Virus record (IMG/VR): IMGVR_UViG_3300012936_000192
Location: 1 to 22,647 of that record
DNA length: 22,647 nt
Reading direction: 5' to 3' (one strand)
DNA from: a virus
In this document: positions 1,250 through 22,416 of the stretch, one piece after another
How positions within the stretch are numbered: the first letter of the stretch is position 1
Layout: each line of letters opens with the position of its first letter
Program-made: the position numbers and the translations under genes
The notes under the pieces: model-generated
Seen by the model: only the letters and a program-made list of their open reading frames with translations
Databases searched by the model: none
What the model was told of the DNA's origin: nothing

Positions 1250-1258
1250 ATAAGTAGT
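1250..1258 (-). promoter_or_regulatory. Candidate late promoter motif, copy A (ACTACTTAT)
   Basis: In the gene direction this reads ACTACTTAT followed by ACATAG. It lies about 11 bases past the terminator at 1270-1311 and 31 bases before the ATG at 1218. It is one of six intergenic copies of ACTAYTTAT. Read on the opposite strand it resembles the T4 late consensus TATAAATA (TATAAGTA), so its direction is not proven. Confidence 0.5.
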
Positions 1259-1269
1259 TCTTTCAACAT

Positions 1270-1311
1270 AAAAAAGGGGCAATAGGCTAATTTCTAACCT
1301 ACGCCCCTTTT
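1270..1311 (-). terminator. Intrinsic terminator after the chaperone-like pair
   Basis: The transcript forms AAAAGGGGC ... GCCCCTTTT with an inner stem TAGGTTA/TTAGCCTA closed by a GAAA-like loop, followed by six U residues. It sits directly after the stop codon at 1327. Confidence 0.88.
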
Positions 1312-1326
1312 AAATTTATTTATTTG

Positions 1327-1506
1327 CTATTTGCCTCTGCGAGACTTGCCCTGAGCTTTTTCCATGGCTTGCTTTTCCTTTTCCATTTGATCTGATAGTC
1401 TTTTTACAAACCATATCCTCAAACCAACTGGCAAGTTATAAGCCTCTATGAAACTCCATCCTCCGTAATACTTTAAGAAGAAGAATTGTTCATAGACATT
1501 CTCCAT
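1327..1506 (-). CDS. Small tail chaperone-like protein; possibly also the frameshift extension of the upstream gene
   Basis: If read from the ATG at 1504-1506 this encodes 59 residues, MENVYEQFFFLKYYGGWSF onward, with a basic tail (GKSRRGK). The ATG lies four bases after the stop of the upstream gene and has only a poor ribosome site, so translation would need reinitiation. The same frame is open upstream to 1587, across a run of seven T in the last codons of the upstream gene, and has no good start there. A shift of +1 (or -2) on that run would fuse this segment to the upstream protein and give about 364 residues. Between a tube gene and a tape measure gene this matches the layout of G/GT-type tail assembly chaperones. 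Sequence: seen. Role and expression route: inferred. Confidence 0.65.
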   Translation of the reverse strand: MENVYEQFFFLKYYGGWSFIEAYNLPVGLRIWFVKRLSDQMEKEKQAMEKAQGKSRRGK

Positions 1507-1510
1507 GTAC

Positions 1511-2422
1511 TTACTGCTTAGGCCAAAAAAAGTCCGTAGTAAACGGAACCTCCATATCCCCGACATGCCCACATTCGCCACATTCAAACATTTGAGTTAA
1601 ATCAAGGTTTGGCATGAGCTTCTGATAAGTTTGGCGTAGATGTCGGGAGTCTCGTGCTGGCAAACTCTGAATTGCTTGAGTAATTTGCCCACGATCAGTT
1701 ACGCCTGAAATAGCAACAGTAAACATTGTAATCTGCTGGGAAAGCATATCTTCTGACAGCTTTCTCTTTCTTCTCGCTTCAACCGATTTCGTCAAAGCCT
1801 TCTCGTCTGCACCAGTCATTGGGCGACATTCAAACTGCCACCCTGTCACGGGCAGTGTGATGGAAACCGTACCACGTTCACCGTTTACTTGAATGTTCTC
1901 CAACTCATCTAGGTACTCTGTACCCGTCTGTGCTGTCTTTTCATTCAAATCAAACTGATGCTTCGTGTTTGCTGAACAGTTTGGACAAGTAACGCCTGTG
2001 GTGTAATCGGCACCATATCCGTTAATTCTTGCATTGACCAAAACTGCATTCTTGTCACCAACCAATAGATCATCTGTCCTGATTCTCTTGTCCACAATTA
2101 GACTCTGTAAGAATCTATCAAGTGCCACACCTTTTTTAAGCAAAGACTGGGAGGTTAGAATATCCTCCTCCTTCGCCGTCATGTGCCTCACCTCAATAAC
2201 CTCTTGACCGTGCAGCGGGTGGTTTGGTTCGTAGAACCTACCGCCTGATGGCAGTTCCACAAATTCGGTCGGGGCAACGAACGTAAGTGGATTGGCTTGG
2301 GTTTGAGGATTTGATGCCATGTGAGGCGGCATCTGTGGCATTCCCATTGTTTCGGGAGTTACAGGAACATTTGAATCTAGATTCGGTGAACCAACTCTAT
2401 CTTCATTTTTTCTTTGACTCAT
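1511..2422 (-). CDS. gp26/gp51-like (T4 base plate protein family) protein, likely tail assembly chaperone
   Basis: This encodes 303 residues. A Pro/Gln/Met-rich N-terminal tail (residues 1-50) precedes the family core: FVELPSGGRFYE (about 53-64), VIEVRHMTAKEEDILTSQSL (75-94), and VGDKNAVLVNARINGYG (121-137). Two CxxC pairs, CPNC at 146-149 and CGEC at 281-284, could bind one zinc. The core matches my knowledge of the T4 base plate family containing gp26 and gp51, which act in baseplate hub assembly. Its position just after the tube gene and before the tape measure, and the overlapping frame at its 3' end, suggest the role of a tail assembly chaperone. Translation starts behind AGAGG. A terminator that carries a promoter-like motif in its loop lies just upstream. 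Confidence 0.75.
   Translation of the reverse strand: MSQRKNEDRVGSPNLDSNVPVTPETMGMPQMPPHMASNPQTQANPLTFVAPTEFVELPSGGRFYEPNHPLHGQEVIEVRHMTAKEEDILTSQSLLKKGVALDRFLQSLIVDKRIRTDDLLVGDKNAVLVNARINGYGADYTTGVTCPNCSANTKHQFDLNEKTAQTGTEYLDELENIQVNGERGTVSITLPVTGWQFECRPMTGADEKALTKSVEARRKRKLSEDMLSQQITMFTVAISGVTDRGQITQAIQSLPARDSRHLRQTYQKLMPNLDLTQMFECGECGHVGDMEVPFTTDFFWPKQ
1525..1531 (-). promoter_or_regulatory. Candidate slippery site (seven U) for programmed frameshifting
   Basis: In the zero frame the message reads GAC TTT TTT TGG CCT AAG CAG TAA, codons 297-300 onward of the gp26/51-like gene. A Phe tRNA on the second TTT can re-pair perfectly one base forward, continuing as GGC CTA AGC AGT into the overlapping open frame. 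No stop intervenes in either frame before the zero-frame TAA at 1511-1513. Direct evidence of shifting is absent. Confidence 0.4.
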
Positions 2423-2446
2423 ATTAACCTCTTATCTGTTAGACTA

Positions 2447-2484
2447 AAAAAAACCCCGTCTACATATAAATAGTATAAACGGGG
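2447..2484 (-). terminator. Intrinsic terminator after the tube gene, with the promoter-like motif in its loop
   Basis: The transcript forms CCCCGTTTA paired with TAGACGGGG (nine pairs, one G-U) closing a 13-base loop, followed by seven U residues at 2447-2453. The loop contains ACTATTTAT. Confidence 0.85.
2466..2474 (-). promoter_or_regulatory. Candidate late promoter motif, copy B (ACTATTTAT)
   Basis: This copy lies in the loop of the terminator at 2447-2484, 43 bases before the ATG at 2422. On the opposite strand it contains an exact TATAAATA, the T4 late consensus, so orientation is uncertain. A transcript started just past the motif would lack the left arm of the hairpin. Confidence 0.5.
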
Positions 2485-2538
2485 AATTTCTTTAATTTTA
2501 GCAAAATATTCTGAGTTTGTTAAATTCTTTTTTGGGTT

Positions 2539-3096
2539 TTATTCAACCTTCCAAACTTCCTGCTCACCGCCCGGTGCGCCAGAATATGGAGAGTGAGTAA
2601 CAACTAGCTGAGCCCAATCATAACGAATCTCAAGCTCAACGTCGGTCATTTCGTCTGACTCATAGTCAAGTTCTCCGAATTTAACATCCTTAACCCAAGG
2701 ATTAATAAGCGTCCAAGTCTCAACAGGATTACCGTCGCCATCAATCTGCTTGATGTTGATCTGGTTACCGATTGCACTAACCGACTTGTTCTTTGACATG
2801 GTTTCAAGCTGATCTGGTGTTTGCGCCGGAGCGTAACCTGATGCTCTAATGATGTTTGCAATTGTTGCTGCCATATCTGGATCAACAGGATCTGCAATCG
2901 TCATAGTAACCGTGCTCCACTCTACTCTACCGGGGTAGTAGTAAGTGTGATTTAAATATTTGTGCCCAATTTCACTCACCGTGAATGCAGGCTTGCTAAC
3001 CTTTTTAAGCGTGTAAGCAGGAATTGTACCTACTTCTAAGACCCATCTATACGCTCTTTTCGGATCTTTCTGTGTTGAATCTGACCAAAAACCCAT
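2539..3096 (-). CDS. gp19: Tail tube protein (gp19-like)
   Basis: This encodes 185 residues, slightly longer than T4 gp19 (163). It opens with MGFWSDSTQKDPKRAYRW, followed by KKVSKPAFTVSEIGHKYLN (about 31-49), then YYYPGRVEWSTVTMTIADP, and ends with beta-rich segments typical of T4-type tube proteins (WVKDVKFGELDYESDEMTDV, IRYDWAQL). Six-fold rings of this protein form the inner tail tube that the sheath surrounds. It follows the sheath gene directly, as in T4. The ribosome site AGGAGAGG is strong, fitting a highly expressed structural gene, and a motif copy plus hairpin lie in the upstream gap. Confidence 0.93.
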   Translation of the reverse strand: MGFWSDSTQKDPKRAYRWVLEVGTIPAYTLKKVSKPAFTVSEIGHKYLNHTYYYPGRVEWSTVTMTIADPVDPDMAATIANIIRASGYAPAQTPDQLETMSKNKSVSAIGNQINIKQIDGDGNPVETWTLINPWVKDVKFGELDYESDEMTDVELEIRYDWAQLVVTHSPYSGAPGGEQEVWKVE

Positions 3097-3153
3097 TTTA
3101 TTTTCCTCTCCTAAAAGTCGTTAATATAATTTCGCCAGTGGCGTTTACTAATA

Positions 3154-3162
3154 ATAAGTAGT
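3154..3162 (-). promoter_or_regulatory. Candidate late promoter motif, copy C (ACTACTTAT)
   Basis: It starts one base after the stem-loop at 3164-3182 and lies 57 bases before the tube ATG at 3096. It is followed by TATTAG. It is one of six copies of ACTAYTTAT. Confidence 0.5.
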
Positions 3163-3163
3163 T

Positions 3164-3182
3164 GGGGGATTAGGAATCCCCC
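3164..3182 (-). other. Stem-loop after the sheath gene
   Basis: GGGGGATT and AATCCCCC form a perfect eight-pair stem with a three-base loop, 18 bases past the sheath stop codon. It lacks a U-run; the ACTACTTAT motif follows instead. It may be a weak terminator or an RNA end-protecting or processing hairpin. Confidence 0.6.
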
Positions 3183-3199
3183 CGCTACCCGTTATTTTT

Positions 3200-6100
3200 T
3201 TAGTCCTCAAACGATGCGCCTGACCGTGAGATAACAAAGTCAAGTGCAATGTACTCAATGGCTCTTGCTGGCTTCAACATAATCTTTGCATAGAGTACGT
3301 TTCTATCAACGAGGTCCGGAGTCGTCGTCGTCTCATCTAGAATTACCTTGAACTCACTAAGTCCAAATCTGGACTTAACTGATGCCAAGAATGGCTCAGT
3401 CTGAGCAATGAATCTCTGCCAAGTAACGCTCGTATTCTGGTCAAACAGAATAGTTGCGGCAATTCTTGAAACTTCTTTCTTCAAGAAAATCATCAAGCGT
3501 CTGACGTTAATTCTGTCAAGCGCAGAAGGAGTAACCTGAAGTGTCTTCTGACCGAAAATTACGATACCCTCTGATGGGAACGTAGCAATCGGGTTAATGT
3601 TTGCTTCGTAGAGAGCGTCACGCTCCTTTGAAGTAAGTCTGTATCTAACCTGTGAGACTGGAAGACCTGCTGAGCCTTCAGTGAGTCCACCACGGTTGAA
3701 GCCTGCTGGTGCAAACCAAACCTCGGTCTTTCTCTGAGAACTCGCCATCGTACCAAGTGCTACAACTGAAGGTGGAGCCCAGAGAACAGCATCGCTGATG
3801 GTGTCTCTAACCTGTACCCATGGGAAGTAAGCACAACCGTAAGATGAATTAAGTCTTCTATCTTTAAGCCTCTGCACGGTACTCTTAACCTGTGGCAATC
3901 TCTTTGCTTCAGGCAGTGTGTTGTCAGTGTTTGGTCGGTAGTCGCCTTCAAGGTCAATAATCGCCAAAGTGTCGGCACGAGACTCACAAGTCGTGAGCAA
4001 GTGTCCCGTCAATCCTTGATTAGTAATACCCGGCATGACTGCCAAGTTACACTCTACAACTTCTGGATCTGCAATTGAATCAATCGCTCTCTTAACCGTG
4101 TTGTATGCGTAATTTGTCTGTGGAGCGCCGTCTGCCAACTCAGCGTTGGAGAAAGGCTCTTTTTGTTTAATATCTACACCATCAGAACCGCCTGCAAGTG
4201 GCACACAGAAAGAATCAAATCCCTTCTCAAGAACTGATTTGTAAGTTCCTTGTCCATCAGAGATAGCAAAGGCATCATCACTACTGTGAGGTTCGTCTGG
4301 AGCGTCTACTACAGTGATTGAACAACCGGCAAATCGTGATCCCGGTGCCCATCTTGCGTGCTGAGAACTTTGCACCTTTGCGGCACCAGTGTCAACTGTC
4401 TCCATTACCAAGTCGTCAAGAGTGAAGTTGCAAACAACGCCCTGACCGTCGGAGTCACCCGCTGCCGCACGACATTGTGCATCTGAAGCAGTGATACCGC
4501 TGAACATGGCGAGGTCAACAGAGTCCGCATCCGGAGCAAAGCAACCTTCTGAGCGAAGCGATGAGCGGGTAATAATGCCGTCATCATCTTCTGATGGATC
4601 CATTGAAACCTCTGAAGACCATGGTCTCAACAGTTCACCGTAAGAGAGATCTGGTCTCGTTGAGCCTGCCTCGTTTGAGCTTGCGCCAAACACTGCTGCA
4701 TCAGGAGACGACAATCTTCCCTCGGTTGAACTGCTTCTACAACCCTGAGCCGGGAACAGGAGAGAAATATTATCAATTCCTGCAATTCCCTTCTTGATAG
4801 AGCCAGCCACAGCCGAGGTGGCAGCGCCGCCATCGCCTTCGGAGCTTCCAAGAGTTGCTGCTGAAGTTAGTGTAGTACATGTACCGTCTACGCCGAATCC
4901 CAACTTGATGGTTCTAGGAGACGCTGGTCCCTCAAAACCGAACGGGATTAGGCTTGGGTCAGCAACACCTGCGTCAACATCTTCATTCATGATAACACGA
5001 ACGAATCGTGACATAGATGGGTACTGACCTGTCGTTCTATATCTGTTTTCGGTATAACTCCAAATAGTCTGCATGTCTCCAATTCTTCTAGCAATGTAAT
5101 CGGAAGAAGCAGGGTTCAGGTTAACCGATGAATATCTTTCAAGGTATTGCGGTGCCTGATCACTATCCTTCGTTGAACGAAGGGTAATCGTGAATCTACC
5201 GTAAGGGTCAAAATCACCCTCTGCGGCTTGGATGTTGGAAACCTCAATCTTAATGTTTTGGGTTGCCCATGCGCCGTCATCAATACCCTCAAAGCGGAAA
5301 AGTCTTTCTACTGGTAGAGCGCCGTCGTCGCCAACTTGGAACTGATCGTGCACACCTTGGTGCTGAGAAATAATCCAACCTGTCTTCGGTGCAGTAGCTT
5401 CTTGTTCGTGTGTTGCCTTGTTCAAGCCCGTGCCATCAAGTGGCAAGAGAAGCGCAAACCCGTTACCGGCGTTCAAGTCGTCAACACCTACAGCACTAAT
5501 GTGCGAATCGTAGGTCTCACCCAAGAAGTGCGACTGCTTCTTCTTGGTAAGGGTGTCGTTGAGAAGCGTAGGGTTCGTGTTAAGAACCTTTCTGATGTAC
5601 TTCTTTGACGATGGATCAAAGTTTACACTGTAGTTCTTTCCGTTGATTCCAATCTTGACTTCGCTCTTGTTTCCTTGGCACTTAACCAAAGCCTGTCCAG
5701 CATCACCCTGTGCGACGGCATCGCCATTGAGACCTTCGCCGACCAGACCAATCTGAGCAGCCTCGTCTTCATGGTAAATAACTGCGCCTAGCGCCATAAC
5801 TGCGTCACCGTCGGCACCGCCTTCAAATGCACCTGTGTTGGAAGCAGCAGCATCACCGCCGTCTGCAACAGCACCAACCACAAAAGTATCAAGTACGCCT
5901 GCGGCGATGGTGGCTGTGTATACTGCGGGTGCACCGGCATCTCCGCTGAGGAACTGTGAAAGTGCAGTGACGGTCAGGGAGTGACCATCATCCGAGTTAT
6001 TTCTTACAGTGATTGTAAGGTCGCCACCGGCTTGTGCAATTGCAATTGTTGAGTTCGCTCCAGCACCGAGAGCTTCCGGCGCAACATCAAGAGTGATAGT

Positions 6101-6583
6101 GCCATTTCCGGCATCTCCAGTGGATGTTCGCTCAAGGGCGATTCCCTGAATTTCACCTGAAGCCTTCTCTCCGTCGCCAACATCTTGAGAACCCAAGAAA
6201 AGACCATAAGCGGCACCATCATCAAGTGCCCAGCCAGCCTTACCTGCTACGGTAGCATCATCATGCTCATGCCCGAGTAGGCGAATAAAAGTTAGTGGGG
6301 CTGCGTTACGCAACCATGCCTGTGCAGCGTAAGCCGCATAGGTTGGAGCGGTTCTATTACCGTCTCTCCAAATGTCTCCACCCTCTCCACCGGGAACAGG
6401 GTTTCCAAACATTTCTACAAATTCCGAAAAGGAACTCACCGTGACCGGTCTCATACCGGGACCACGTTCTGCCCGCCCAATAACCACGGGTCCAATACCT
6501 TCTGCTGCTCCGGGCAACTGCGAGTTATCAATCTCGTTGATGAAGATACCGGGTGAAACAAATCTAAATTTCTTTACTGACAT
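3200..6583 (-). CDS. gp18: Tail sheath protein (gp18-like), unusually long
   Basis: This encodes 1127 residues, against 659 for T4 gp18. The N-terminus (FRFVSPGIFINEID, GIGPVVIGRAERGP, FSEFVEMFGNP, YAAYAAQAWLRNA) is the standard start of a contractile sheath protein. The C-terminal third carries the conserved fold: YPSMSRFVRV upstream, later DTISDAVLWAPPSVVALG, GIVIFGQKTLQ, LDRINVRRLMIFLKKEVSR, FLASVKSRFGLSEFKVILDE and the end FVISRSGASFED. The segment from about 110 to 330 is rich in Ala, Gly and Asp and looks like an inserted surface domain. More poorly recognised sequence lies at about 560-750. The sheath contracts to drive the tube into the host. Translation starts behind AGGAGAG. No frameshift or stop is seen, so the length is real. 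Confidence 0.93.
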   Translation of the reverse strand: MSVKKFRFVSPGIFINEIDNSQLPGAAEGIGPVVIGRAERGPGMRPVTVSSFSEFVEMFGNPVPGGEGGDIWRDGNRTAPTYAAYAAQAWLRNAAPLTFIRLLGHEHDDATVAGKAGWALDDGAAYGLFLGSQDVGDGEKASGEIQGIALERTSTGDAGNGTITLDVAPEALGAGANSTIAIAQAGGDLTITVRNNSDDGHSLTVTALSQFLSGDAGAPAVYTATIAAGVLDTFVVGAVADGGDAAASNTGAFEGGADGDAVMALGAVIYHEDEAAQIGLVGEGLNGDAVAQGDAGQALVKCQGNKSEVKIGINGKNYSVNFDPSSKKYIRKVLNTNPTLLNDTLTKKKQSHFLGETYDSHISAVGVDDLNAGNGFALLLPLDGTGLNKATHEQEATAPKTGWIISQHQGVHDQFQVGDDGALPVERLFRFEGIDDGAWATQNIKIEVSNIQAAEGDFDPYGRFTITLRSTKDSDQAPQYLERYSSVNLNPASSDYIARRIGDMQTIWSYTENRYRTTGQYPSMSRFVRVIMNEDVDAGVADPSLIPFGFEGPASPRTIKLGFGVDGTCTTLTSAATLGSSEGDGGAATSAVAGSIKKGIAGIDNISLLFPAQGCRSSSTEGRLSSPDAAVFGASSNEAGSTRPDLSYGELLRPWSSEVSMDPSEDDDGIITRSSLRSEGCFAPDADSVDLAMFSGITASDAQCRAAAGDSDGQGVVCNFTLDDLVMETVDTGAAKVQSSQHARWAPGSRFAGCSITVVDAPDEPHSSDDAFAISDGQGTYKSVLEKGFDSFCVPLAGGSDGVDIKQKEPFSNAELADGAPQTNYAYNTVKRAIDSIADPEVVECNLAVMPGITNQGLTGHLLTTCESRADTLAIIDLEGDYRPNTDNTLPEAKRLPQVKSTVQRLKDRRLNSSYGCAYFPWVQVRDTISDAVLWAPPSVVALGTMASSQRKTEVWFAPAGFNRGGLTEGSAGLPVSQVRYRLTSKERDALYEANINPIATFPSEGIVIFGQKTLQVTPSALDRINVRRLMIFLKKEVSRIAATILFDQNTSVTWQRFIAQTEPFLASVKSRFGLSEFKVILDETTTTPDLVDRNVLYAKIMLKPARAIEYIALDFVISRSGASFED

Positions 6584-6632
6584 TTCTAAATCTCTCCTTA
6601 GTTTCTCGTTTATGATTCAATGAGCTAGACAG

Positions 6633-6688
6633 AAAAATTCCTTGAAACCCATTTCTCTAATAAATAGTATGATAAAACCCCAAAGGAA
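6633..6688 (-). terminator. Weak inverted repeat with U-tail around motif copy D
   Basis: TTCCTT (6683-6688) and AAGGAA (6638-6643) form a six-pair stem with a long loop, followed in the transcript by five U residues (6633-6637). The loop contains ACTATTTAT. The long loop makes this a weak terminator at best. Confidence 0.35.
6660..6668 (-). promoter_or_regulatory. Candidate late promoter motif, copy D (ACTATTTAT)
   Basis: It lies in the 110-base gap between the tail-completion gene and the sheath gene, 76 bases before the sheath ATG, within the loop of a weak inverted repeat. It reads ATACTATTTATTAG, closely matching copies B and F. Confidence 0.5.
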
Positions 6689-6693
6689 CTAAA

Positions 6694-7542
6694 TTATCCC
6701 CTAAATTTAGATTTATCCCATTCTCCGGGTTTTTCGTCGGTCAACACCCTTTCTCTGGGTATCTTAACCTCCACTGCGTTTTCAGTGACTACGACTTTTG
6801 GTGTGTCTTGGTTGGGTCCATCACCAATCAGCATACCCAACACTTTAATCTCAATCTCTGTTTGATACTTTCTTTCATCTTCGCCCATATCGGCAACGTT
6901 ATTATTCAAAGAAAAATCTTGTCCGATAAAGATTTCAAACTTGTGACCATCATGGCTTATAATTTCATAATTGATCGCTTTCGCCTCTGTGATGAAAGGT
7001 TGAAGGATTTCGTTCATCTGCTGCTGATACTCAGTCCAAAGAGAGACCTTGTAAGTTACGTCTACATAGACAGGCTGTGGGATTGAAACATATTGATAAA
7101 CAACTTTGTCGTTTTTCTTCTCTGTCTTAAAATTAATTTGTTTTCTTTTTCTGAGTGCATCCGCATTCTGGTGGTTTTTTGTTTTTTCTTGATTAATTCT
7201 TCTGGCTACCACGAAGACACCACCACGATCATCTGACGGTGGAACGTTAGCCCAGTACGGACCTTTTCTAGCGGGATCTTTAGTCACGCCTGTTCTTTCT
7301 ACTGTGATAATCGGCAAGATAAGCTGACCAGAGTCATCTCTCGCTTCTCGTGTTCCTTTAGATTGGCGGGCTCGTTCGGCAGTAGACCACAAAACGGCAA
7401 CTTTTTTCCAACCCTTGTTCGTGGTGCAGAAAATATCTAATTCTTCGTTAATCCATTTATGAATAGCTGTGTCCATCGTCTCTAGCGTACAAGGACTGAT
7501 GTTATAAACTTTTTTATCTAGGTTGGTTCCCTTAGTTTCCAT
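6694..7542 (-). CDS. Tail completion / sheath-stabiliser protein (gp15-like by position)
   Basis: I place the start at ATG 7540-7542, giving 282 residues; the preceding in-frame TTG is less likely because GAGAGGGG is well spaced for the ATG. The gene overlaps the upstream gene by 11 bases. Recognisable blocks are LPIITVERTGVTKDPARKGP (about 76-95), VVYQYVSIPQPVYVDVTYKV (148-167), TEYQQQMNEILQPFITEA, and ENAVEVKIPRERVL near the end. T4 gp15 has 272 residues and caps the tail between neck and sheath. The size, the place between neck genes and sheath, and the likely beta-rich middle agree with that role. I recall similar proteins in marine T4-like phages but cannot confirm homology to gp15. Confidence 0.6.
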   Translation of the reverse strand: METKGTNLDKKVYNISPCTLETMDTAIHKWINEELDIFCTTNKGWKKVAVLWSTAERARQSKGTREARDDSGQLILPIITVERTGVTKDPARKGPYWANVPPSDDRGGVFVVARRINQEKTKNHQNADALRKRKQINFKTEKKNDKVVYQYVSIPQPVYVDVTYKVSLWTEYQQQMNEILQPFITEAKAINYEIISHDGHKFEIFIGQDFSLNNNVADMGEDERKYQTEIEIKVLGMLIGDGPNQDTPKVVVTENAVEVKIPRERVLTDEKPGEWDKSKFRG

Positions 7543-8023
7543 CAAACAACCCCTCTCTAGCCATGGTGCACTGTGCCGTAATCTCTAACTTGTTTTGTAC
7601 CTGTCCGAACAACTCTCTAGGCGATCCTAATCTCACGATCTCAAAGAAATCTTTTCCATACTGGATAAAATCGCCTTCTCTGACGTAGAGATCCTGATCT
7701 TCTGTGAGTCTTCTCTTGTGGAAGTGTACCACAATTGTCTTTCTTTTGTCAATACCAAAATTTGTACTTGTGGTTTCCGATCCTTCGTCTTCAACCAAGG
7801 CATACACTCTGACTGGCGGTAAGAATGTTTTATTAATCGCCTCTCCATACAGAGGGTGATAGTTGGTCTTGTCTTGCGAGATGGGATAGTATAAAACAGT
7901 TTGCCCGATAACCCTCTCAATGAGTTCATCGTTTACTTGTTTTACTAAATCTCTCTCCTTTTTCCCCGTGAACAGAGGGGGTGGTGGAGCATCCGGTTGT
8001 TCCCATTTGTTGTCGTCAGACAT
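7532..8023 (-). CDS. Neck / head-tail connector protein (gp14-like by position)
   Basis: This encodes 163 residues starting nine bases after the stop of the gp13-like gene, with GAGGATAG as the ribosome site. After a Pro-rich N-terminus (EQPDAPPPPLFTG) come GQTVLYYPISQDKTNYHPLY (about 40-59), FLPPVRVYALVEDEG, KTIVVHFHKRRLTEDQDLYV (about 94-113) and GDFIQYGKDFFEIVRLG. The YPI-YHPLYGE and HFHKRRL blocks are those of a connector family that I recall from many marine myoviruses. It is shorter than T4 gp14 (256), so the gp14 label is positional. It probably joins the completed head to the tail. Confidence 0.62.
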   Translation of the reverse strand: MSDDNKWEQPDAPPPPLFTGKKERDLVKQVNDELIERVIGQTVLYYPISQDKTNYHPLYGEAINKTFLPPVRVYALVEDEGSETTSTNFGIDKRKTIVVHFHKRRLTEDQDLYVREGDFIQYGKDFFEIVRLGSPRELFGQVQNKLEITAQCTMAREGLFDGN

Positions 8024-8032
8024 TTTCTATCC

Positions 8033-9373
8033 TCACCCTGTAAAGATCGGCATTGGAATCTGTGCCATAATTCTATTAGAATTTTCTAGAGCATCAGCAT
8101 CTCCTTCAATAAGTTTGCCATAAGTCAGTTCATCTAATAATTCTTTTAGTTCGTCACGAAGTGCCGTCTGTTCTTCTTTTGCCGCCGAAACAAGATCGGC
8201 TCCGTTCATCTGCACATCATTACCCGGAATTGGAATGGAACCAAATTTACTTCTAACTTGCCCCAACATCTCTTTTGACAAAGAGAGAGCAAATCGTCGG
8301 ATCCACTGCTTTCCAATAGAATTAATTTTGTCATATGGGACATTTGAAAATGGCAAAGAATTAATATTGTTAATTCCAAAAAGACCAATGTCCCTCGCCG
8401 CCTCTCCATCAGCAACCGGCTCTGACTCCCAATTGTTAGCTCCGACCGAGAACTCAACCCACATCTTGCTGGGGTGGTTATTCGTTGGAATCGGAAATAA
8501 TCTTAATCTGTTGTTTTTAATTTCGTATGAATAGTGAGATGCTCTATTATAAAGTTTGTTTTCAAACTCTGCCGTCTTCAGCTTTGTCTCCCACACTGGC
8601 ACCACATGGAAATAAGAGTCATTCGCATAGGATCCGTAGGTTTGCCAGTTTCCGATGACGCTTGCGCCGCCGCCACCGTAGTAAAACCAACTAGCGTTAG
8701 GGGTCTTCCAATAAACTTTTTTAATTACAACCTTATTATCTCCGATGCTTCGCACGAAATCTTCATGTTCAGAATCATCACCAAACTCATCACTGTTTCT
8801 CAAGATCGTTTGCAGGTCATAATCTTGTGTTCCGGGATCAACATCAAAAGATGCTGAATAAACATTAATAGCGCCGCCAATATTTACTTCTTCGGAAATA
8901 CCGTCAGACATTCTTCTGGCGTAAGCAAAATCAAATCTTGGATATGCTAGGTTGACGTTTGTGCTTGGGGCAACGTCGCTTGATGGTCTCCCGTCTTCTC
9001 CGGGCTCAAGCAACTCCCCATTTTCATCAAAGGAGCCTGTGGAGGCTCCCAAAATGTTTGATAGGACATTCTTCCCCTGATGAATATTAATTAAATATGA
9101 ATACTCTAGAACCGCTTCTTCGTATGCTGCATAAACCTGAGCCTCAGTAATTTCTAAATCTAGAACATCGCCACCGAGCTTCTTATAAACATAAGAAACT
9201 TGATCTGCTGCGCCTCTCTTGAAGGCGTTGATTTGATAGGCTTCCCAAAAATCTGAAGTGTAAACACCGAGGGGCAACGGATAATCTGCTGAATCTACAT
9301 TGTCCGTGTTTCCTCGCTCTGAAAGTGCAATTTTAGATTGCTGGGATTTAGGTGTTAAATCAGGAATTGACAT
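8033..9373 (-). CDS. gp13: Neck protein (gp13-like)
   Basis: This encodes 446 residues, longer than T4 gp13 (309). It begins MSIPDLTPKSQQSKIALSER; an out-of-frame ATG five bases upstream shares the GAGGAG ribosome site. Features include a helical N-terminal part (FWEAYQINAFKRGAADQVSY, ITEAQVYAAYEEAVLEYSYL), a Gly-rich middle (SWFYYGGGGASVIGNW) and a conserved C-terminal block RRFALSLSKEMLGQVRSKFG followed by SIPIPGNDVQMNGADLV and a long amphipathic helix. That last block is what I associate with gp13-type neck proteins of marine T4-like phages. It heads the neck operon directly after the capsid terminator and motif copy E. Confidence 0.72.
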   Translation of the reverse strand: MSIPDLTPKSQQSKIALSERGNTDNVDSADYPLPLGVYTSDFWEAYQINAFKRGAADQVSYVYKKLGGDVLDLEITEAQVYAAYEEAVLEYSYLINIHQGKNVLSNILGASTGSFDENGELLEPGEDGRPSSDVAPSTNVNLAYPRFDFAYARRMSDGISEEVNIGGAINVYSASFDVDPGTQDYDLQTILRNSDEFGDDSEHEDFVRSIGDNKVVIKKVYWKTPNASWFYYGGGGASVIGNWQTYGSYANDSYFHVVPVWETKLKTAEFENKLYNRASHYSYEIKNNRLRLFPIPTNNHPSKMWVEFSVGANNWESEPVADGEAARDIGLFGINNINSLPFSNVPYDKINSIGKQWIRRFALSLSKEMLGQVRSKFGSIPIPGNDVQMNGADLVSAAKEEQTALRDELKELLDELTYGKLIEGDADALENSNRIMAQIPMPIFTG

Positions 9374-9395
9374 GGCATACGGTTCTCCTCATAGT

Positions 9396-9404
9396 ATAAG
9401 TAGT
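9396..9404 (-). promoter_or_regulatory. Candidate late promoter motif, copy E (ACTACTTAT)
   Basis: It reads AACTACTTATACTATGAGGAG in the gene direction, only 22 bases before the ATG at 9373 and just after the capsid terminator. A start a few bases past the motif would leave a leader of about 15 bases that still contains the GAGGAG ribosome site. Confidence 0.52.
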
Positions 9405-9411
9405 TTCCAAA

Positions 9412-9457
9412 CAAAAGAAAGCCCCAACTCAGACCGAAATCTAAGCTGGGGCTTTTT
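9412..9457 (-). terminator. Strong intrinsic terminator after the major capsid gene
   Basis: AAAGCCCCA pairs with TGGGGCTTT, with an interrupted inner stem (AGA ... TCT) around a TTCG-type turn, followed by CTTTTGTTT. It lies 25 bases beyond the capsid stop codon and separates head from neck genes. Confidence 0.9.
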
Positions 9458-9481
9458 AAGAGTTTAGTTAATCGCTAAAGA

Positions 9482-11389
9482 TTACTCAGCCGGTGTGGGC
9501 TGATCTACGTTAACTAGGTCACGAACCAAGACAAGACCGTACATGTCTGGACGAACCATCTTCTTACCGTAACGAGTCATGACACCCTTACGTGGGGTGA
9601 AGTCCTCTGGTCCAAAGATAGTTGGGGTGGTCTGTAGTGGCACGTATGGTGCGTATACATAACCGCTCTCAAGGAAAGAGCTTCCCTTACGTCCGACAAG
9701 GATGAGGTTACGTGGGAAGTATGGGTCAACATAAAGATCAAACTTCTTGTTGATTGAACCTTCCTTCACAGCACCTACAGTGCCTCTGTCGTCGTCGTGA
9801 GTTACACTAGCACGGAAACCGTTGGTGAACTCAAGGATGTTAGCAACCTCTGGTCCGCAAACCAAGAAGTTAGCTCCACCACGGAGAGTCTTGCGGTGAA
9901 TCTGTGCAGAAACGTCATTGATGGTCTCAATAAGCGTCTCGTACCACTCGCTTACAGTACCGGTGAAGTCACCAGACTGTTGGGCAGGGGCAGCAGCAGC
10001 ACCAGTAGACTTGTTAACAAATCTGCCCGGAACACGTGACCAGTAGAAAGTACCAGCCGTTGCCTGAGTGATAAGATCCTTCAAGATCTCTTGGTCAATC
10101 TCAAGAGCAATCTGCTCTGAGAGAACCTGAGTAAGCTCAACTTCTGCGTCAAGATTGTGATAAGCGTTGAGGTCTTGTCCCAATTCTGGGGTCCACTTCG
10201 CCTTCATCTTGCGAGTCGTTGCGGTGATAGCTGTGCTGTCAACCTTAATGTCAATCTCAGGAATGTTCATTCCGTCGCCTTCACCGTCATTGCCGAATGG
10301 ATCAGCAAGAGTAGACTCAAGCTCCCAAGTAGCAGCCATCTCAAGGGCACCAAGTCCACCTGAAACGTTCTGGATTGGATCCTGAACTCCATAAGTAACG
10401 TCAAACGTCACAACACTGACTCCGGTCACACCGGGTGTTGCGCCAGCAGCAAAAAGCCCCGCATTTGCGGCGAATTCGCCATCGCCACCAACAGCAGCAC
10501 CTCTGATCTGATCAGCGTGACCACGAAGAACAACACGAAGATCGCCAGCGTCATTGATGCGCTTAGTTAGGCGTCGGATAAGCTGAATGTCGGCAGCGAG
10601 ATCGCCCGCACCGTCACCGGCAGCATTCCTAAGAGCAGCATCACCCTCAGCAGAGAGTGCAAGCGTCATGACATGATGAGCGGTAATCTGGTCAATATTG
10701 TTAGTACCCGGCAGAACCTCACACTTATCGGATGCCTCGGTGAGATCGCTAAGATCAAGCGTACAAACAACAATTTCGTCTGACGATGTTCCTGCTGCTG
10801 CTTCAGCAAGAAGATCTGCATCAAAGTCAAGCAACTTAGCCTCAGCTTCGGTCAACTCGGATGACATATCAATAGCTGCTGCATTAAGTGTCAAAGCACC
10901 TGCGGCAACCTTTGAAGAACCTCTGGCTGACGAGTAACCTTGGGAAAGGTTATAAAAACCGTTGTCGCCAAGCTCAACACCTTCAATGATCTCTGAACCA
11001 ACTACACCCTGACCGTGAACTGAATCACCCTTAGTGTTATCACGCTGACTGCTCTTGGTGAAATCCAAGAAGAAGATCAAGCCGGATGGCAAGCTCATTG
11101 GTTGAACGCTAACAAGATCGTTAGCAAGTAGCCCACCGAATACACGACGAACAAGTGGGAATGCTACAGCAGCAAAGCCTTGGACGTTGCTGTCTGATCC
11201 CTGAGTATTAGCTTCACGTAGAAGCTCCTTTGCTTGGTTCTCAAGCAAAACTGCCATGGACTGACGATCATAATCGTTGTCAAGCCCCTCAAGAAGTCCA
11301 GTCTTGGACCACTTGTTGAGGAGGGCAGCACCTTCTTTAGCGACGTTGCGTCTAACAACGCCTTCAGTAAGTCTTTCTAAAATAGACAT
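9482..11389 (-). CDS. gp23: Major capsid protein (gp23-like) with a large insertion
   Basis: This encodes 635 residues; T4 gp23 has 521. The N-terminal region (MSILERLTEGVVRRN, LNKWSKTGLLEGL, SMAVLLENQAKELLRE) is the helical pre-sequence. L57-R58-E59 followed by Ala fits the (L/I)xE site cut by the gp21 protease, giving a mature start at residue 60. The block FAAVAFPLVRRVFGGLLAND after it is highly characteristic of gp23. Residues of about 170-340 are Ala/Gly/Asp-rich and absent from the compact T4 form, probably an inserted surface domain. The C-terminal half (RKMKAKWTPELGQDLNAYHN, LSEQIALEIDQEIL, YVYAPYVPLQTTPTIFGPED, RYGKKMVRPDMYGL) is the conserved capsid core. AGGAGGAAAT is the strongest ribosome site in the window. 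Confidence 0.96.
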   Translation of the reverse strand: MSILERLTEGVVRRNVAKEGAALLNKWSKTGLLEGLDNDYDRQSMAVLLENQAKELLREANTQGSDSNVQGFAAVAFPLVRRVFGGLLANDLVSVQPMSLPSGLIFFLDFTKSSQRDNTKGDSVHGQGVVGSEIIEGVELGDNGFYNLSQGYSSARGSSKVAAGALTLNAAAIDMSSELTEAEAKLLDFDADLLAEAAAGTSSDEIVVCTLDLSDLTEASDKCEVLPGTNNIDQITAHHVMTLALSAEGDAALRNAAGDGAGDLAADIQLIRRLTKRINDAGDLRVVLRGHADQIRGAAVGGDGEFAANAGLFAAGATPGVTGVSVVTFDVTYGVQDPIQNVSGGLGALEMAATWELESTLADPFGNDGEGDGMNIPEIDIKVDSTAITATTRKMKAKWTPELGQDLNAYHNLDAEVELTQVLSEQIALEIDQEILKDLITQATAGTFYWSRVPGRFVNKSTGAAAAPAQQSGDFTGTVSEWYETLIETINDVSAQIHRKTLRGGANFLVCGPEVANILEFTNGFRASVTHDDDRGTVGAVKEGSINKKFDLYVDPYFPRNLILVGRKGSSFLESGYVYAPYVPLQTTPTIFGPEDFTPRKGVMTRYGKKMVRPDMYGLVLVRDLVNVDQPTPAE

Positions 11390-11416
11390 TTTCTATTTCC
11401 TCCTAAATGATATAAA

Positions 11417-12460
11417 TTAGTCTCTATTTTTAATTCCAGCAAGAATAGCCCATCTGTCCATCTCGGGACTTCTGGTCTCTTGCAATTTTTCTGTGCGTCT
11501 TGGCATGAATGCTGAAGTTCTCTTTGACACTACTTCGCTCAGCGATTTTGGCTGTCGTTTGCTGCGACTGCTCTGCACTGCGCTTTGAAGGGTCTCAAAC
11601 ATGACCTTCGCTTCTTCTACCGTACCCGCACGACTAATAGCTTCGGCAACTTGATTCTTTTGCCGCTCATTCAGGGAGTCACTATTTAAAATTTTGTTTG
11701 TGTAAAGTAATTTTGCGTTTAATAAATTCGTTTCGTTTAGCTTTGTTTCAAGGTGGGCGATAATCTTCATAGCTTTGTCGCTTCTCTTTGTAACCTTGTC
11801 TAGCTTTTCTTGCAAGTCTTTAACTGCCTTAGCCTGCTCTTTTTCTTCTTTCGCCGCTTCGGTGTCTCTAGCCTTGGCGAGTGCTGCATCGCTCTCAGAC
11901 TCTTGCTCGGCTGGATTTGCAGCATGACCACCGACCGTTCCGGATGGCACAGGCTCGTGGTCTACTTTAAGAAGTTCTGCGACCACGGTATCAATAAGAT
12001 TTTCTGTTAACTCTAATTCTTCTTCGTCCTCGTCCGCATCTAATCCAAGCTCAGCGTCCAAGCCTGCATCACCAGCTAGTGGGTCTTCAGCAGCGCCGGG
12101 TGCAGCGGGGTCCATTCCCATCTCTGCGTCTGCTGCTGCCGCAAGGGCATCAAAGTCAACGACGATTTCTTCTTGTTCGTCAGGACAAGGGCAAAGGTTT
12201 TCACCGTCTGTTGCCGCTGGTGGTACGTCGGGCAGAGAATCTGGTGCTGCTTCAGCGCCCATGTCTCCTCCGAGACCTCCAAGTTCGTCTTCCGGTGCTT
12301 CATCTAGACCAAGCTCATCTTCTTCAGCTTCTAGTAAAGAATTTACCGCACTCTTAATATCTGCCGAATATTTTTCTATAATTGCAGCCTCGGCATTCTT
12401 GATCGCCGCCTCTTTCAAGGCTTCTGCGTCCACAATAGCTTGCTCTAACATTGATGACAT
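11417..12460 (-). CDS. gp22: Prohead core scaffold protein (gp22-like)
   Basis: This encodes 347 residues starting behind AGGAGAG. The middle (about 45-150) is very acidic and Ala/Gly-rich, with an odd CPCP. The C-terminal half is a long coiled coil (KDLQEKLDKVTKRSDKAMKI, ETKLNETNLLNAKLLYTN) followed by NSDSLNERQKNQVAEAISRA and TVEEAKVMFETLQSAV, which I recognise from gp22-type scaffolds. The end is basic (RSKRQPKSLSEVVSKRTSAF). The protein forms the core around which capsid protein assembles and is later degraded by gp21. It is co-transcribed with the capsid gene 27 bases downstream. Confidence 0.9.
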   Translation of the reverse strand: MSSMLEQAIVDAEALKEAAIKNAEAAIIEKYSADIKSAVNSLLEAEEDELGLDEAPEDELGGLGGDMGAEAAPDSLPDVPPAATDGENLCPCPDEQEEIVVDFDALAAAADAEMGMDPAAPGAAEDPLAGDAGLDAELGLDADEDEEELELTENLIDTVVAELLKVDHEPVPSGTVGGHAANPAEQESESDAALAKARDTEAAKEEKEQAKAVKDLQEKLDKVTKRSDKAMKIIAHLETKLNETNLLNAKLLYTNKILNSDSLNERQKNQVAEAISRAGTVEEAKVMFETLQSAVQSSRSKRQPKSLSEVVSKRTSAFMPRRTEKLQETRSPEMDRWAILAGIKNRD

Positions 12461-12502
12461 TTAAAAATCTCTCCTTTTTCCTTAACAGTAAAAAACAAAT
12501 AA

Positions 12503-12545
12503 GGTTTTTTCATTAAATAAATAGTATCAAATTAATCAAAAAACC
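12503..12545 (-). terminator. A/T-rich inverted repeat around motif copy F, possible weak terminator
   Basis: GGTTTTTT pairs with AAAAAACC and, past one mismatch, ATTAA pairs with TTAAT, closing a 15-base loop. In the transcript TTATTTGTTTTTT follows. It lies just after the tubulin-like gene. The loop contains ACTATTTAT. The stem is symmetrical but rich in A-U pairs. Confidence 0.5.
12517..12525 (-). promoter_or_regulatory. Candidate late promoter motif, copy F (ACTATTTAT)
   Basis: It lies in the loop of the inverted repeat at 12503-12545 and 56 bases before the scaffold ATG at 12460. It reads GATACTATTTATTTAATG and would drive the scaffold-capsid unit, the most highly expressed genes of a late phage programme. 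Confidence 0.52.
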
Positions 12546-12564
12546 CATTTAATAACATTAATTC

Positions 12565-13605
12565 CTATTCAAGCCCATTAAGGGCGAGAATCGCAACTAA
12601 ACCGGGCAAATTCTCACGGATGTAGACTCCGGAAAAAAGTGTGTCGGTTCGTCCACCGACATAAGAGACAGCAGCATCTAAATGCTTGCTAACTTCTGGA
12701 TCTTCAGCCATTTCTGGCGTTACTACGAGAAGCATGGCTCCGGTCTTTGGCTTTCCTTTTGGCTCAGGACATGGGGATCTTCTAAGGCAGTTTTGATACA
12801 ATTCTGCTCCTAAGTTCGGACCCGTCTCCTTTGAAATAGTTGAGCCTAAAAACATTCTCCTTGGGGTCTTCAAACAACGCTCTAGATCTTTTGAATCAAA
12901 AGACTGGATTGGCGACTTTTCGCCTGCCAGCTTCAAAACCTGAGTCAGCAGCTTGACAAACGTGGTGTTGGCAGTAGGATACATTCCCAACATGCCGACC
13001 TTTCCACGAAGTAGCTGAACCTGTTTCTCGTTGTCTAAAACAATTTGTGTCTTTTCCGACAGGTCGGAATTAAGTGATGTGGCATTTTCTCTGATTGTGG
13101 AGTTCAACATCTCTTGTGCGGTAGGTTGAGTTGTAACGTAGATTACCGAACCTTCCCCCTGTACCGATGCCAAGTAACGATCAAAAACACCAGAAAGTGC
13201 CGAGGTGCTTGAACCAGTACCTCCACCGCCGCCAGCACAAACAATGAGCCAATCTACCTTGCCCATCTTAGTGCGTAATGCATCTTCAACCACTGCACTG
13301 TTATCAGCGAAAACCTTCTTGCCAATCTTCACATCTTTTGCCGCTCCGTCTGAACCGGGAACAAGCACCATGTGCTGCTCTTGCAGACCCAGTGGCTGAT
13401 CTTTCTCTGTTGTGTTGATAAGAATGGTCTTATTGTATCCTTGTTCAATAAAAGCCTTGGCGAGCTTACCGCCGCCTCCACCGATACCAACGATACCCAC
13501 ACTAATTGCAGTCTCTACGTCGTTGTCCGGTAATTGATTTTCATGCTTCACTTCTACAGCATCACCATAGCTGTCAATAAAATCAAAGTCGTCAAATTCA
13601 CTCAT
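12565..13605 (-). CDS. Tubulin/FtsZ-family GTPase
   Basis: With the ATG at 13603-13605 (AGGGGAAAA ribosome site) it has 346 residues; an in-frame GTG at 13621-13623 lies upstream of that site and is unlikely. After an acidic N-terminal tail come the nucleotide-binding loops of the family: GIGGGGG at 40-46, LINTTEKD at 62-69 (the FtsZ AINTD position), the tubulin signature AGGGGGTGSSTS at 124-135, VLDNEK at 189-194 with the guanine-contacting Asn, and DSKD at 237-240 at the position of the catalytic DxxD loop. All parts needed for GTP binding and polymer-coupled hydrolysis seem present. Phage tubulins such as PhuZ centre the replicating genome or move capsids; whether this one does is unknown. 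Its place between head genes is unusual. Confidence 0.87.
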   Translation of the reverse strand: MSEFDDFDFIDSYGDAVEVKHENQLPDNDVETAISVGIVGIGGGGGKLAKAFIEQGYNKTILINTTEKDQPLGLQEQHMVLVPGSDGAAKDVKIGKKVFADNSAVVEDALRTKMGKVDWLIVCAGGGGGTGSSTSALSGVFDRYLASVQGEGSVIYVTTQPTAQEMLNSTIRENATSLNSDLSEKTQIVLDNEKQVQLLRGKVGMLGMYPTANTTFVKLLTQVLKLAGEKSPIQSFDSKDLERCLKTPRRMFLGSTISKETGPNLGAELYQNCLRRSPCPEPKGKPKTGAMLLVVTPEMAEDPEVSKHLDAAVSYVGGRTDTLFSGVYIRENLPGLVAILALNGLE

Positions 13606-13643
13606 AACATTTTCCCCTGTCACTTGATATAATTAGATAAAAA

Positions 13644-13677
13644 TAAAAAAAAAGCCAAAAAACGCTACTTTCGGCTT
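13644..13677 (-). terminator. Intrinsic terminator overlapping the bS21 stop codon
   Basis: AAGCCGAAA pairs with TTTTTGGCTT (one G-U pair), followed by at least eight U residues. The TAG stop of the bS21 gene lies in the loop, so a ribosome finishing bS21 would sit on the hairpin. Confidence 0.82.
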
Positions 13678-13907
13678 GATTTGTTTTTGTTTCTCTTAGC
13701 AGCACGTCTCTCGTCTCTCTGGCGACGATATTCAGCTTCTGCCCTCTTTCTTCTTTTCTTTACAGATTTCTTCTCAAAGTATCTGCGTTGTCTTACCTCG
13801 TCTAGAATCCCACTTCTCTTAACCTTCTTTGTAAATCTTCTGATAAGTCGTTCTGGATTCTCTCTAGGTCTTGCGACGACCTCTGCATTGATTGGTTGGT
13901 TTGCCAT
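13665..13907 (-). CDS. rpsU: Ribosomal protein bS21 homologue
   Basis: This encodes 80 highly basic residues. The bS21 pattern is clear from about residue 14: RENPERLIRRFTKKVKRSGI, then LDEVRQRRYFEKKSVKKRRK, then a Lys/Arg-rich tail ending KNKSSRK. Cellular bS21 is about 70 residues and binds near the anti-Shine-Dalgarno end of 16S rRNA in the small subunit, where it helps initiation. Phage copies are known in marine phages, including Pelagibacter phage HTVC008M. The gene starts one base after the stop of the upstream head gene and uses a GGGAG site inside it, so the two are translationally linked. A terminator follows at once. Expression with late head genes suggests ribosome tuning for late messages, which is inference. 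Confidence 0.93.
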   Translation of the reverse strand: MANQPINAEVVARPRENPERLIRRFTKKVKRSGILDEVRQRRYFEKKSVKKRRKRAEAEYRRQRDERRAAKRNKNKSSRK

Positions 13908-13908
13908 T

Positions 13909-14343
13909 TTAATCTCCCATTAACTTTCTTGCTACATCCAAGTTCAGTCCGGGAATAGAATTAATATCTACTCCGGGATCGTTTGGATCCATATCTCTCA
14001 TGGGACCATTTGACGGCGACGGAGTTGGTGAGCCGCCAGACGACATGGGGCTCGTGCCCTCAAAAAGATCAACACCATTATAGGCTGACCCGCCGATGGC
14101 TGCGAGCATTTTTTCTTTGTGCTCTTGCAACTCACGAGAAATGCGTCTTCTTTCATCGTCCCTATTGTTTCTTTGTGGCGCTTCTTGTCTCACGGTCTCT
14201 CTGACAACCTGTCTGTCGCTGGTTAAACCAACCGCAACCTCTGACACGATCTTAGACAACACTCCTGATTCCTCAAGCAAAACTTCTTTAATGCACTGCT
14301 TAATTAGTGGCTTTAGCGCCTTCTTTAATTCTTCTCTTTTCAT
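13909..14343 (-). CDS. Conserved prohead-region protein, possible minor scaffold component
   Basis: This encodes 144 residues, overlapping the protease gene by four bases (ATGA) with a weak GGTGA ribosome site. The N-terminus is an amphipathic helix, MKREELKKALKPLIKQCIKE, then EESGVLSKIVSEVAVGL. A charged Arg/Glu-rich helix (about 55-85) is followed by MLAAIGGSAYNGVDLFEGT and a Ser/Pro/Gly-rich low-complexity stretch, ending in DPNDPGVDINSIPGL and a short helix. I recall this layout (LFEGT, DPGVDI) from marine T4-like phages beside the protease. No function is established. Its size and place next to protease and scaffold suggest a small core protein like T4 gp67 or gp68, but no homology is claimed. 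Confidence 0.75.
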   Translation of the reverse strand: MKREELKKALKPLIKQCIKEVLLEESGVLSKIVSEVAVGLTSDRQVVRETVRQEAPQRNNRDDERRRISRELQEHKEKMLAAIGGSAYNGVDLFEGTSPMSSGGSPTPSPSNGPMRDMDPNDPGVDINSIPGLNLDVARKLMGD

Positions 14344-14945
14344 TGTTCACCCACAATATCATTTAAAATTCTATTAATACGGTCTGCCTTGGAGAACAAA
14401 CTTTTTTCCATGCCCTCCTGCACAGCCATGTATGCTCCCGGTGTTGATGGTTCACTGACAAAATCAAAACAGATCAACTGAAAGTCGTCTTCAACGATTG
14501 TATTGCCATTATTATCCTCATGCACCGATCCAAGCCCTCGGCTTGAAATACCCAGCTTTACTCCACCCTCAACGAGTGACTTTAGGATGTTTCCTGATGG
14601 GGTGTTAAGAACCTTAATCTTACCCATTACATTGTTTCCATCCCACCAAACTTTAGTCACCATGTGTGATGCATTCTTCAAGTTGACAACTGAATCTTCT
14701 GGGTGGTCTAGCTCACCCAAAGCTCTGTTCTCTTGAATGAGTTTGTCGTAGTTTTTCATCTCTCTCATGAGTACGTTGTGCGGATAGATTCTTCCGTTAC
14801 CATTCAACTGATCAGACTTTTGCATAATGCCAGTCAGATAAGTCGTACCATTGGCAACCTCAATCTTCTCGGATTCCGTAAGGTGGTCTTGACACACGCC
14901 GCCTTCGCACATTTCATAATACTCTGTTAAAATCTTTTTAGCCAT
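14340..14945 (-). CDS. gp21: Prohead core protease (gp21-like)
   Basis: This encodes 201 residues, close to T4 gp21 (212). Core motifs are YLTGIMQKSDQLNGNGRIYP (36-55), RALGELDHPEDS with probable catalytic His81, NLKNASHMVTKVWW (88-101), TPSGNILKSLVEGG (115-128) and GISSRGLGS with probable catalytic Ser134 or Ser135. The enzyme is packed into the prohead, activates itself, cuts scaffold and capsid proteins after (L/I)xE, and is then lost. Its own N-terminus contains ILTE (5-8), a possible self-cleavage site. It overlaps the upstream small gene by eight bases and the downstream gene by four, so the group is tightly coupled. Confidence 0.93.
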   Translation of the reverse strand: MAKKILTEYYEMCEGGVCQDHLTESEKIEVANGTTYLTGIMQKSDQLNGNGRIYPHNVLMREMKNYDKLIQENRALGELDHPEDSVVNLKNASHMVTKVWWDGNNVMGKIKVLNTPSGNILKSLVEGGVKLGISSRGLGSVHEDNNGNTIVEDDFQLICFDFVSEPSTPGAYMAVQEGMEKSLFSKADRINRILNDIVGEQ

Positions 14946-15321: not shown

Positions 15322-15753
15322 TTACTCATCTTCTTCTCCTCCATTATACTCATAAAACTTTGCAAGCTCATCTACGCTCATCGTCGCATATGGGTCAGAC
15401 TTACAATCTTCACACTGACCGGCATCATTCTGAACCGGGTCATTGTGGTTGTGGAAAAAATTAATTCCCTTGTCTCCGAAAACCATATTCATGACATATG
15501 AAGCTCCCGAACCCAACCATCCACAAATTAAAAAATTCGCAAGATTGAGTTCAAAAGTAAATAGTTCCGTGAACGGATTTAAACAAAAAAGTAGCGCACC
15601 GACCCAAAATCCCATACACATAGGACAGGAAACAAGCTCTCCAAAAAAGTCAGACCTTTCTTTTATAAAGTTTCTTGGCTTATTGAAGATTGTTCCATAC
15701 ACCAATAGCTGGGTCAATCCATACCCTGTCAACACAAACCATAAAAGTTCCAT
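15322..15753 (-). CDS. DUF1360-like membrane protein
   Basis: This encodes 143 residues starting seven bases after the preceding gene's last sense codon, behind CAGGAG. Hydrophobic segments at about 3-22, 46-62 and 70-92 suggest two or three membrane passes. The pattern YGLTQLLVYG, KPRNF, then CPMCMGFWVG (43-52) matches DUF1360 as I know it. A second pair, CEDC (114-117), lies in the acidic C-terminal tail that ends EYNGGEEDE. The family has no firm function. CPMC/CEDC could bind metal or form disulfides. A membrane protein inside a head-assembly operon is odd: it could anchor prohead initiation at the membrane, or act in superinfection or lysis. These ideas are inference. Confidence 0.72.
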   Translation of the reverse strand: MELLWFVLTGYGLTQLLVYGTIFNKPRNFIKERSDFFGELVSCPMCMGFWVGALLFCLNPFTELFTFELNLANFLICGWLGSGASYVMNMVFGDKGINFFHNHNDPVQNDAGQCEDCKSDPYATMSVDELAKFYEYNGGEEDE

Positions 15754-15756
15754 TCT

Positions 15757-19101: not shown

Positions 19102-19106
19102 CTTTG

Positions 19107-20684: not shown

Positions 20685-20701
20685 TCATCACACTCTTACT
20701 C

Positions 20702-21337: not shown

Positions 21338-21339
21338 TG

Positions 21340-22193: not shown

Positions 22194-22196
22194 TTT

Positions 22197-22415: not shown

Positions 22416-22416
22416 T

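Follow-up and report, generated by a model that had tools for sequence, protein, structure and literature searches.

Candidate two-element late promoters on the sense strand before head and tail genes of a far-T4 virus fragment

The fragment analysed here (IMG/VR record IMGVR_UViG_3300012936_000192, 22,647 bp, hereafter the window) has the gene content of a far-T4 myovirus, including sheath, tube, hub, gp13-like adaptor, capsid, protease, portal and terminase genes. Six copies of the 9-mer ACTAYTTAT stand before its head and tail genes, raising the question of what this word signals and on which strand it is read. The initial annotation proposed a phage-specific late promoter but left its direction open, since placement favoured sense transcription and the consensus appeared to favour antisense. 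The analysis described here indicates that the six sites are very probably bipartite late promoters on the sense strand, each starting one head or tail unit and probably read by a phage sigma factor of the gp55 family.

All six copies read in gene direction, on the minus strand; 0.24 would be expected, and none of 100 shuffles reached six. Every copy is intergenic, as originally described, and the 22 to 76 nt reported between box and start codon were recovered: 31 nt for the copy at 1250, 43 nt at 2466, 57 nt at 3154, 76 nt at 6660, 22 nt at 9396 and 56 nt at 12517. Among the genes served, family matches exist for the tube (phrog_4542), sheath (phrog_23) and gp13-like Ad2 (phrog_211) genes, and the gene first called gp26/51-like matches a baseplate hub (phrog_150). 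The supposed small tail gene encodes 112 aa with no function assigned, and the supposed scaffold is a 347-aa gene without a family match that precedes the capsid gene. The exact motif is not present in 12,526-22,647. The relaxed form ACTAHTTAH has three genic sense copies there (14300, 15557 and 17242), and one genic antisense copy in the window, at 11681.

Because the window is a fragment, the scan of a full genome on both strands, suggested at the outset as a check on enrichment in gaps, was run in relatives instead. The window DNA has no near match among named phages; its nearest named relatives are Flavobacterium phage immuto, Microcystis phage Mel-JY01 and Rhodothermus phage RM378. The comparison set comprises 80 related viral contigs retrieved via the capsid protein (52-58% identical), and intergenic counts rest on simple gene calls in these contigs. 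The exact word occurs 143 times along the gene direction and 5 times opposite to it in the 80 contigs, with about 8 expected per strand. In the gaps, which make up 4.9% of the sequence, the count is 126 sense and 0 antisense with the window included, and for ACTAHTTAH it rises to 250 sense against 0 antisense across the window and the 80 loci. In the window and relatives the box lies a median of 31 nt from the start codon. A count of all 9-mers in 314 distinct gaps, made without a seed, ranks ACTATTTAT at the top (91 sense, 0 antisense), followed by shifted forms; ACTATTTAC (43/0) and ACTATTTAA (21/0) are likewise found only in sense. From this ranking the consensus box is ACTATTTAH, with the core TAYTTA. 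The C form ACTACTTAT accounts for three of the six window copies, yet it is a minority form across the clade.

The sites are also specific to certain genes. Gene specificity was scored with a position weight matrix (PWM) as a site at most 150 nt upstream, and in the relatives such a site precedes the scaffold gene in 47 of 49 cases, the sheath gene in 32 of 33, the neck gene in 29 of 63 and the tube gene in 5 of 27. No site was found upstream of 73 capsid genes, which lie downstream of the scaffold gene, or of 19 hub genes. Tightly coupled genes are nearly siteless (0/44 for a 163-aa gene, 1/54 for a 283-aa gene), and antisense sites number zero before every gene class. PWM sites in five long relatives (~597 kb) number 31 in sense and 0 in antisense, most of them upstream of terminase-proximal, scaffold, neck and sheath genes.

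An alignment of 114 distinct sites contains a conserved block at -20 to -14 relative to the first A of the box. This -35-like element was missed when the sites were first read as promoters; the box itself stands. In the 75 sites without a strong upstream hairpin the block reads G-G/T-C-N-T-T-T (GKCNTTT), and 47 of these carry TTT at -16 to -14. The register is fixed: a matrix trained on half of the sites gives 2.9 bits on the held-out sites in register, falling to near zero one position off and to strongly negative values beyond. With AYTTAT and GKCNTT counted as hexamers, a spacer of 17 bp separates them. At 13-14 nt past the first A of the box, where a start site is expected, a purine followed by A is overrepresented; together with the spacing, this is the geometry of a two-element promoter. 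Each site would thus open one head or tail transcription unit on the sense strand, from a -10 box ACTATTTAH and a fixed-register GKCNTTT about 17 bp upstream, with transcription likely starting at the purine ~5-6 nt past the box and presumably late in infection.

Terminators frequently accompany these sites. A T-tract hairpin lies directly upstream of 65 of 226 sites (~29%), compared with 2.3 in shuffled flanks, and the final G run and T tract of the upstream terminator often double as the -35 element; the terminator of the preceding unit would often finish on the -35 of the next. The -35 as a by-product of termination is ruled out, as the element is equally sharp in the 75 hairpin-free sites. 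A terminator just upstream means that the RNA of the downstream unit must start anew, which favours initiation over processing. Strand bias, the fixed -35, terminators and gene specificity strongly support the proposal of a phage-specific late promoter in its sense reading.

The window's own sites, all on the minus strand, are listed below with PWM scores and the number of relatives in which the position is occupied.

12517..12525, minus strand: candidate -10 box ACTATTTAT upstream of the scaffold-like gene 11417-12460, which the capsid gene follows; PWM 23.1; occupied in 47/49 relatives
12539..12545, minus strand: -35-like element GGTTTTT of the scaffold site, in register at -20 to -14
9396..9404, minus strand: candidate -10 box ACTACTTAT upstream of the gp13-like neck gene 8033-9373; PWM 20.0; 29/63 relatives
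9418..9424, minus strand: -35-like element GGGCTTT of the neck site, overlapping the 3' arm and T tract of the upstream terminator
9418..9455, minus strand: intrinsic terminator of 17 pairs, ending on the -35 of the neck promoter; folding z -6.7
6660..6668, minus strand: candidate -10 box ACTATTTAT upstream of the sheath gene 3200-6583; PWM 23.8; 32/33 relatives
6682..6688, minus strand: -35-like element TTCCTTT of the sheath site
3154..3162, minus strand: candidate -10 box ACTACTTAT upstream of the tube gene 2539-3096; PWM 17.5; 5/27 relatives
3176..3182, minus strand: partial -35-like element GGGGGAT of the tube site, within a G/C hairpin
2466..2474, minus strand: candidate -10 box ACTATTTAT upstream of the baseplate hub gene 1511-2422, without a -35 element (TAAAGAA); PWM 11.7; 0/19 relatives
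2446..2484, minus strand: terminator-like hairpin of 11 pairs with a T8 tail, the hub box at its loop; folding z -4.8
1250..1258, minus strand: candidate -10 box ACTACTTAT upstream of the 112-aa gene 880-1218; PWM 12.8; exact word in 3/9 relatives
1272..1307, minus strand: terminator-like hairpin with a T tract at the 112-aa site, where CCCTTTT at 1272-1278 fills the -35 position
15557..15565, minus strand: weak candidate ACTATTTAC inside gene 15322-15753; PWM 11.8

The -35 element is present at the scaffold and neck sites, reduced to the CNTTT half at the sheath site and present in part at the tube site. The clearest terminators before boxes are those at 9418-9455 and near 1272-1307. The hub box at 2466 lies in a hairpin loop, so a transcript begun there would lack the 5' arm and only read-through RNA would terminate. 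A promoter within a loop was ruled out as a general design (2 of 226 sites, 0.7 expected), and 2466 is a local oddity. The counterpart of the 15557 candidate in one relative (G003) precedes the prohead protease gene, and the candidate may be an internal promoter. At another locus (L014), promoter copies at 8761, 9309 and 9932 each stand behind their own terminator, two of the leaders being nearly identical, an arrangement that resembles a duplicated small gene cassette.

A candidate reader of these sites is encoded by the relatives. A search with the T4 gp55 family (phrog_234) gave matches in G001, G002, G003, G004 and G009 (E 4.6e-8 to 9.9e-6) and a weak one in immuto. The initial annotation had suggested looking for both gp55-like and gp33-like genes; the former are present in these five relatives, and no gp33 homologue (phrog_254) was detected in G001-G004, immuto, Mel-JY01 or RM378, gp33 being a protein that diverges fast. 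The identity of the five proteins as gp55-like sigma factors is well supported; the family matches mainly cover the region 2 part. They measure ~234-254 aa, compared with 185 aa for T4 gp55. A further 80 homologues were retrieved and 48 sequences aligned, in which the C-terminal stretch NKKAxYLYxREITGLNTKQVVxxLN, not in T4 gp55, ranks with the best-conserved parts and has near-invariant residues. AlphaFold predicts confident helices in this stretch (mean predicted local distance difference test 86 for the whole protein, 90 for the C-terminal piece), and these are consistent with a helix-turn-helix. Weak fold matches of the whole protein include sigma factors, with phage sigma factors from the viral library, and the C-terminal piece by itself weakly matches mainly helix-turn-helix or homeodomain folds that bind DNA, sigma-A among them. 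For homology of the C-terminus to sigma region 4, Pfam, hhalign and Foldseek gave no significant match; "region 4" is offered as a proposal. In the suggested mechanism, region 2 of a phage-encoded gp55-family sigma would probably read the box on host RNA polymerase, and the extra conserved C-terminal helical (helix-turn-helix-like) domain would probably read the -35; the window's own phage presumably encodes such a protein.

Homologues of this sigma are annotated as hypothetical proteins in immuto (MW353177.1, 78130-78828) and Mel-JY01 (PP395634.1, 158764-159534), and are 25-30% identical to that of the relatives. The RM378-type sigma (phrog_1740) was rejected as reader of the box, as the long relatives show only weak, stop-containing stretches of it. 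The clamp model PF02916 matches T4 only, with no hit in the relatives; it fails on Mel-JY01 as well, although a clamp loader is encoded there, so the model is too insensitive for absence of a T4 clamp to be called. The clamp loader family phrog_168 has a strong match only in T4 and Mel-JY01.

Three other explanations were weighed against sense promoters read by a phage sigma. If the sites were antisense T4-type late promoters, gp55 would read the reverse complement ATAAATAGT and transcripts would run against the genes. The sense box TATTTATA differs from the T4 box TATAAATA at two central bases only, its reverse complement is T4-box-like, and TATAAATA occurs exactly at 2465-2472 on the plus strand, as first reported. 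A single such match is unremarkable (0.36 expected), however, and three window copies give ATAAGTAGT, a poor match to T4. In T4 itself, a search for TATAAATA by this procedure yields 16 boxes in gaps, each oriented with the downstream gene, at a median of 25.5 nt from the start codon. In the window and its relatives the fixed-spacing -35, the coupling to start codons and the upstream terminators are all on the sense side. In Mel-JY01 the box follows gene strand: intergenic ATATTTAT boxes are oriented 23 with the gene and 4 against, and two minus-strand boxes precede a minus-strand gene. The 250/0 strand bias, the sense-side -35, the sense terminators upstream and the tracking of gene strand in Mel-JY01 settle the direction as sense and rule out antisense reading, which retains hardly any probability. 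The T4-like antisense match is a by-product of the box sequence.

The reader of the sense promoters might instead be a host sigma (housekeeping or alternative), given that a bipartite layout with a spacer of ~17 bp is normal for host sigmas. The elements are off the sigma-70 consensus, however, and a scan of the window for TTGACA-17-TATAAT found no excess (20 sites, 21.3 in shuffles), with none in sense at the motif. Nor do they match the Bacteroidetes promoter consensus, which is TTTG/TAnnTTTG. Phages deposited for Flavobacterium and for Microcystis hosts both have a related box, and the relatives encode a gp55-like sigma; recognition by a host factor is on these grounds unlikely. Finally, the word could be a leader RNA element for processing, stability or translation control. 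It is sense-oriented in gaps, mostly 20-60 nt before start codons, and one copy forms a hairpin loop. Against this, 29% of sites lie directly behind a terminator and would need new initiation, the fixed -35 spacing and the purine ~5-6 nt downstream have promoter geometry, and the loop placement is not general, making an RNA element quite improbable, more so than a host sigma.

Several points weigh against sense promoters read by a gp55-family sigma. The evidence consists of sequence anatomy and comparison, and the window, being only a fragment, does not itself contain a sigma gene. Two of its six copies, at the hub (2466) and 112-aa (1250) sites, have a poor -35, and the sites before the tube, hub and 112-aa genes are poorly conserved. 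G001 also has sites away from its structural genes, and the box is thus not confined to virion genes. The PWM was itself derived from loci of this comparison set; gene specificity, strand bias and the unseeded 9-mer count are independent of that training set. Fold searches against the PDB with the full-length sigma and its C-terminal domain gave no significant match. Since the sigmas of immuto and Mel-JY01 have the C-terminal part and the promoters of these phages are without GKCNTTT, the pairing of C-terminus and -35 is tentative.

T4 late promoters are among the known systems closest to these sites. Both have a single TA-rich -10 box before structural genes, on the same strand and at similar distances from the start codon (25.5 and 31 nt), and a gp55-family sigma in the same genomes (five relatives here). 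Unlike T4, the clade has the sense box TAYTTAH/ACTATTTAH in place of TATAAATA, with the central AA replaced by TT, a sigma with an added conserved C-terminal domain and a -35-like GKCNTTT at fixed spacing. A conserved -35 is absent from T4 late promoters (PMC2988020; PMC7892883), and no comparable block was found in the T4 boxes aligned here (16 sites only). The box sequence and the -35 break two defining features of T4 late promoters, setting these sites apart as a variant.

The boxes of immuto and Mel-JY01 are newly described here and are not annotated in their records. They share the TATTTAT box, its sense bias and a homologous sigma with the window clade, but the GKCNTTT block was not found in either phage, and the first base is A or C, mainly ATATTTAT in Mel-JY01. 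In immuto, intergenic [AC]TATTTAT boxes are oriented 35 with the gene and 4 against, and exact ACTAYTTAT has 0 copies in the first 55 kb, home of DNA polymerase, reductase and other early-type genes. RM378 is also a far-T4 phage with a related capsid protein and its own sigma (NP_835731); however, this sigma belongs to phrog_1740, with sigma-70 region 2 and a weak region 4, rather than to phrog_234, and no box of the window type was found in RM378. Bacterial sigma-70 promoters likewise have two elements ~17 bp apart and a TA-rich -10, but neither hexamer fits. The mega-phage LR756508 (~200 kb searched) gave no clear signal of the box, and a literature search on phage late promoters found no description of it in the papers covered.

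Other features of the window concern its genes. The sheath protein (3200-6583, minus strand) has 1127 aa, of which only residues 749-1126 match the family; T4 gp18 has ~660 aa. A tubulin/FtsZ-like gene (12565-13623, minus strand) lies inside the head gene cluster, with a GGGTGS signature, a glycine-rich N-terminal loop, a Pfam Tubulin match below the curated cut-off (E 6.9e-5) and a PHROG PhuZ match (E 7e-4); tblastn against named phages found no match to it. The 90-nt gap at 15232-15321 (minus strand) before gene 14938-15231 has neither a box nor an obvious ribosome-binding site; the reading frame called there may be wrong.

Late transcription in T4 is the textbook example of a sliding clamp taking the place of the -35 contact. 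In the paper describing the far-T4 phages, T4 core transcription-regulation genes were not detected (PMC4360716). These phages are common in water. The analysis gives the window's clade, a large and little-known aquatic group, a predicted late promoter and a candidate late sigma. As the candidate sigma is also present in two cultured phages, use of a -35 by a gp55-family sigma and dispensability of the clamp could be tested directly, and the motif could mark late transcription units in many uncultured phages. A more tentative proposal, which we consider possible but somewhat short of probable, is that the sigma of this clade reads the full two-element promoter via its own C-terminal DNA-binding domain, without a T4-type clamp or gp33. 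If true, the clade would be a surviving link between ordinary two-element promoters and the late system of T4, which depends on the clamp and has no -35.

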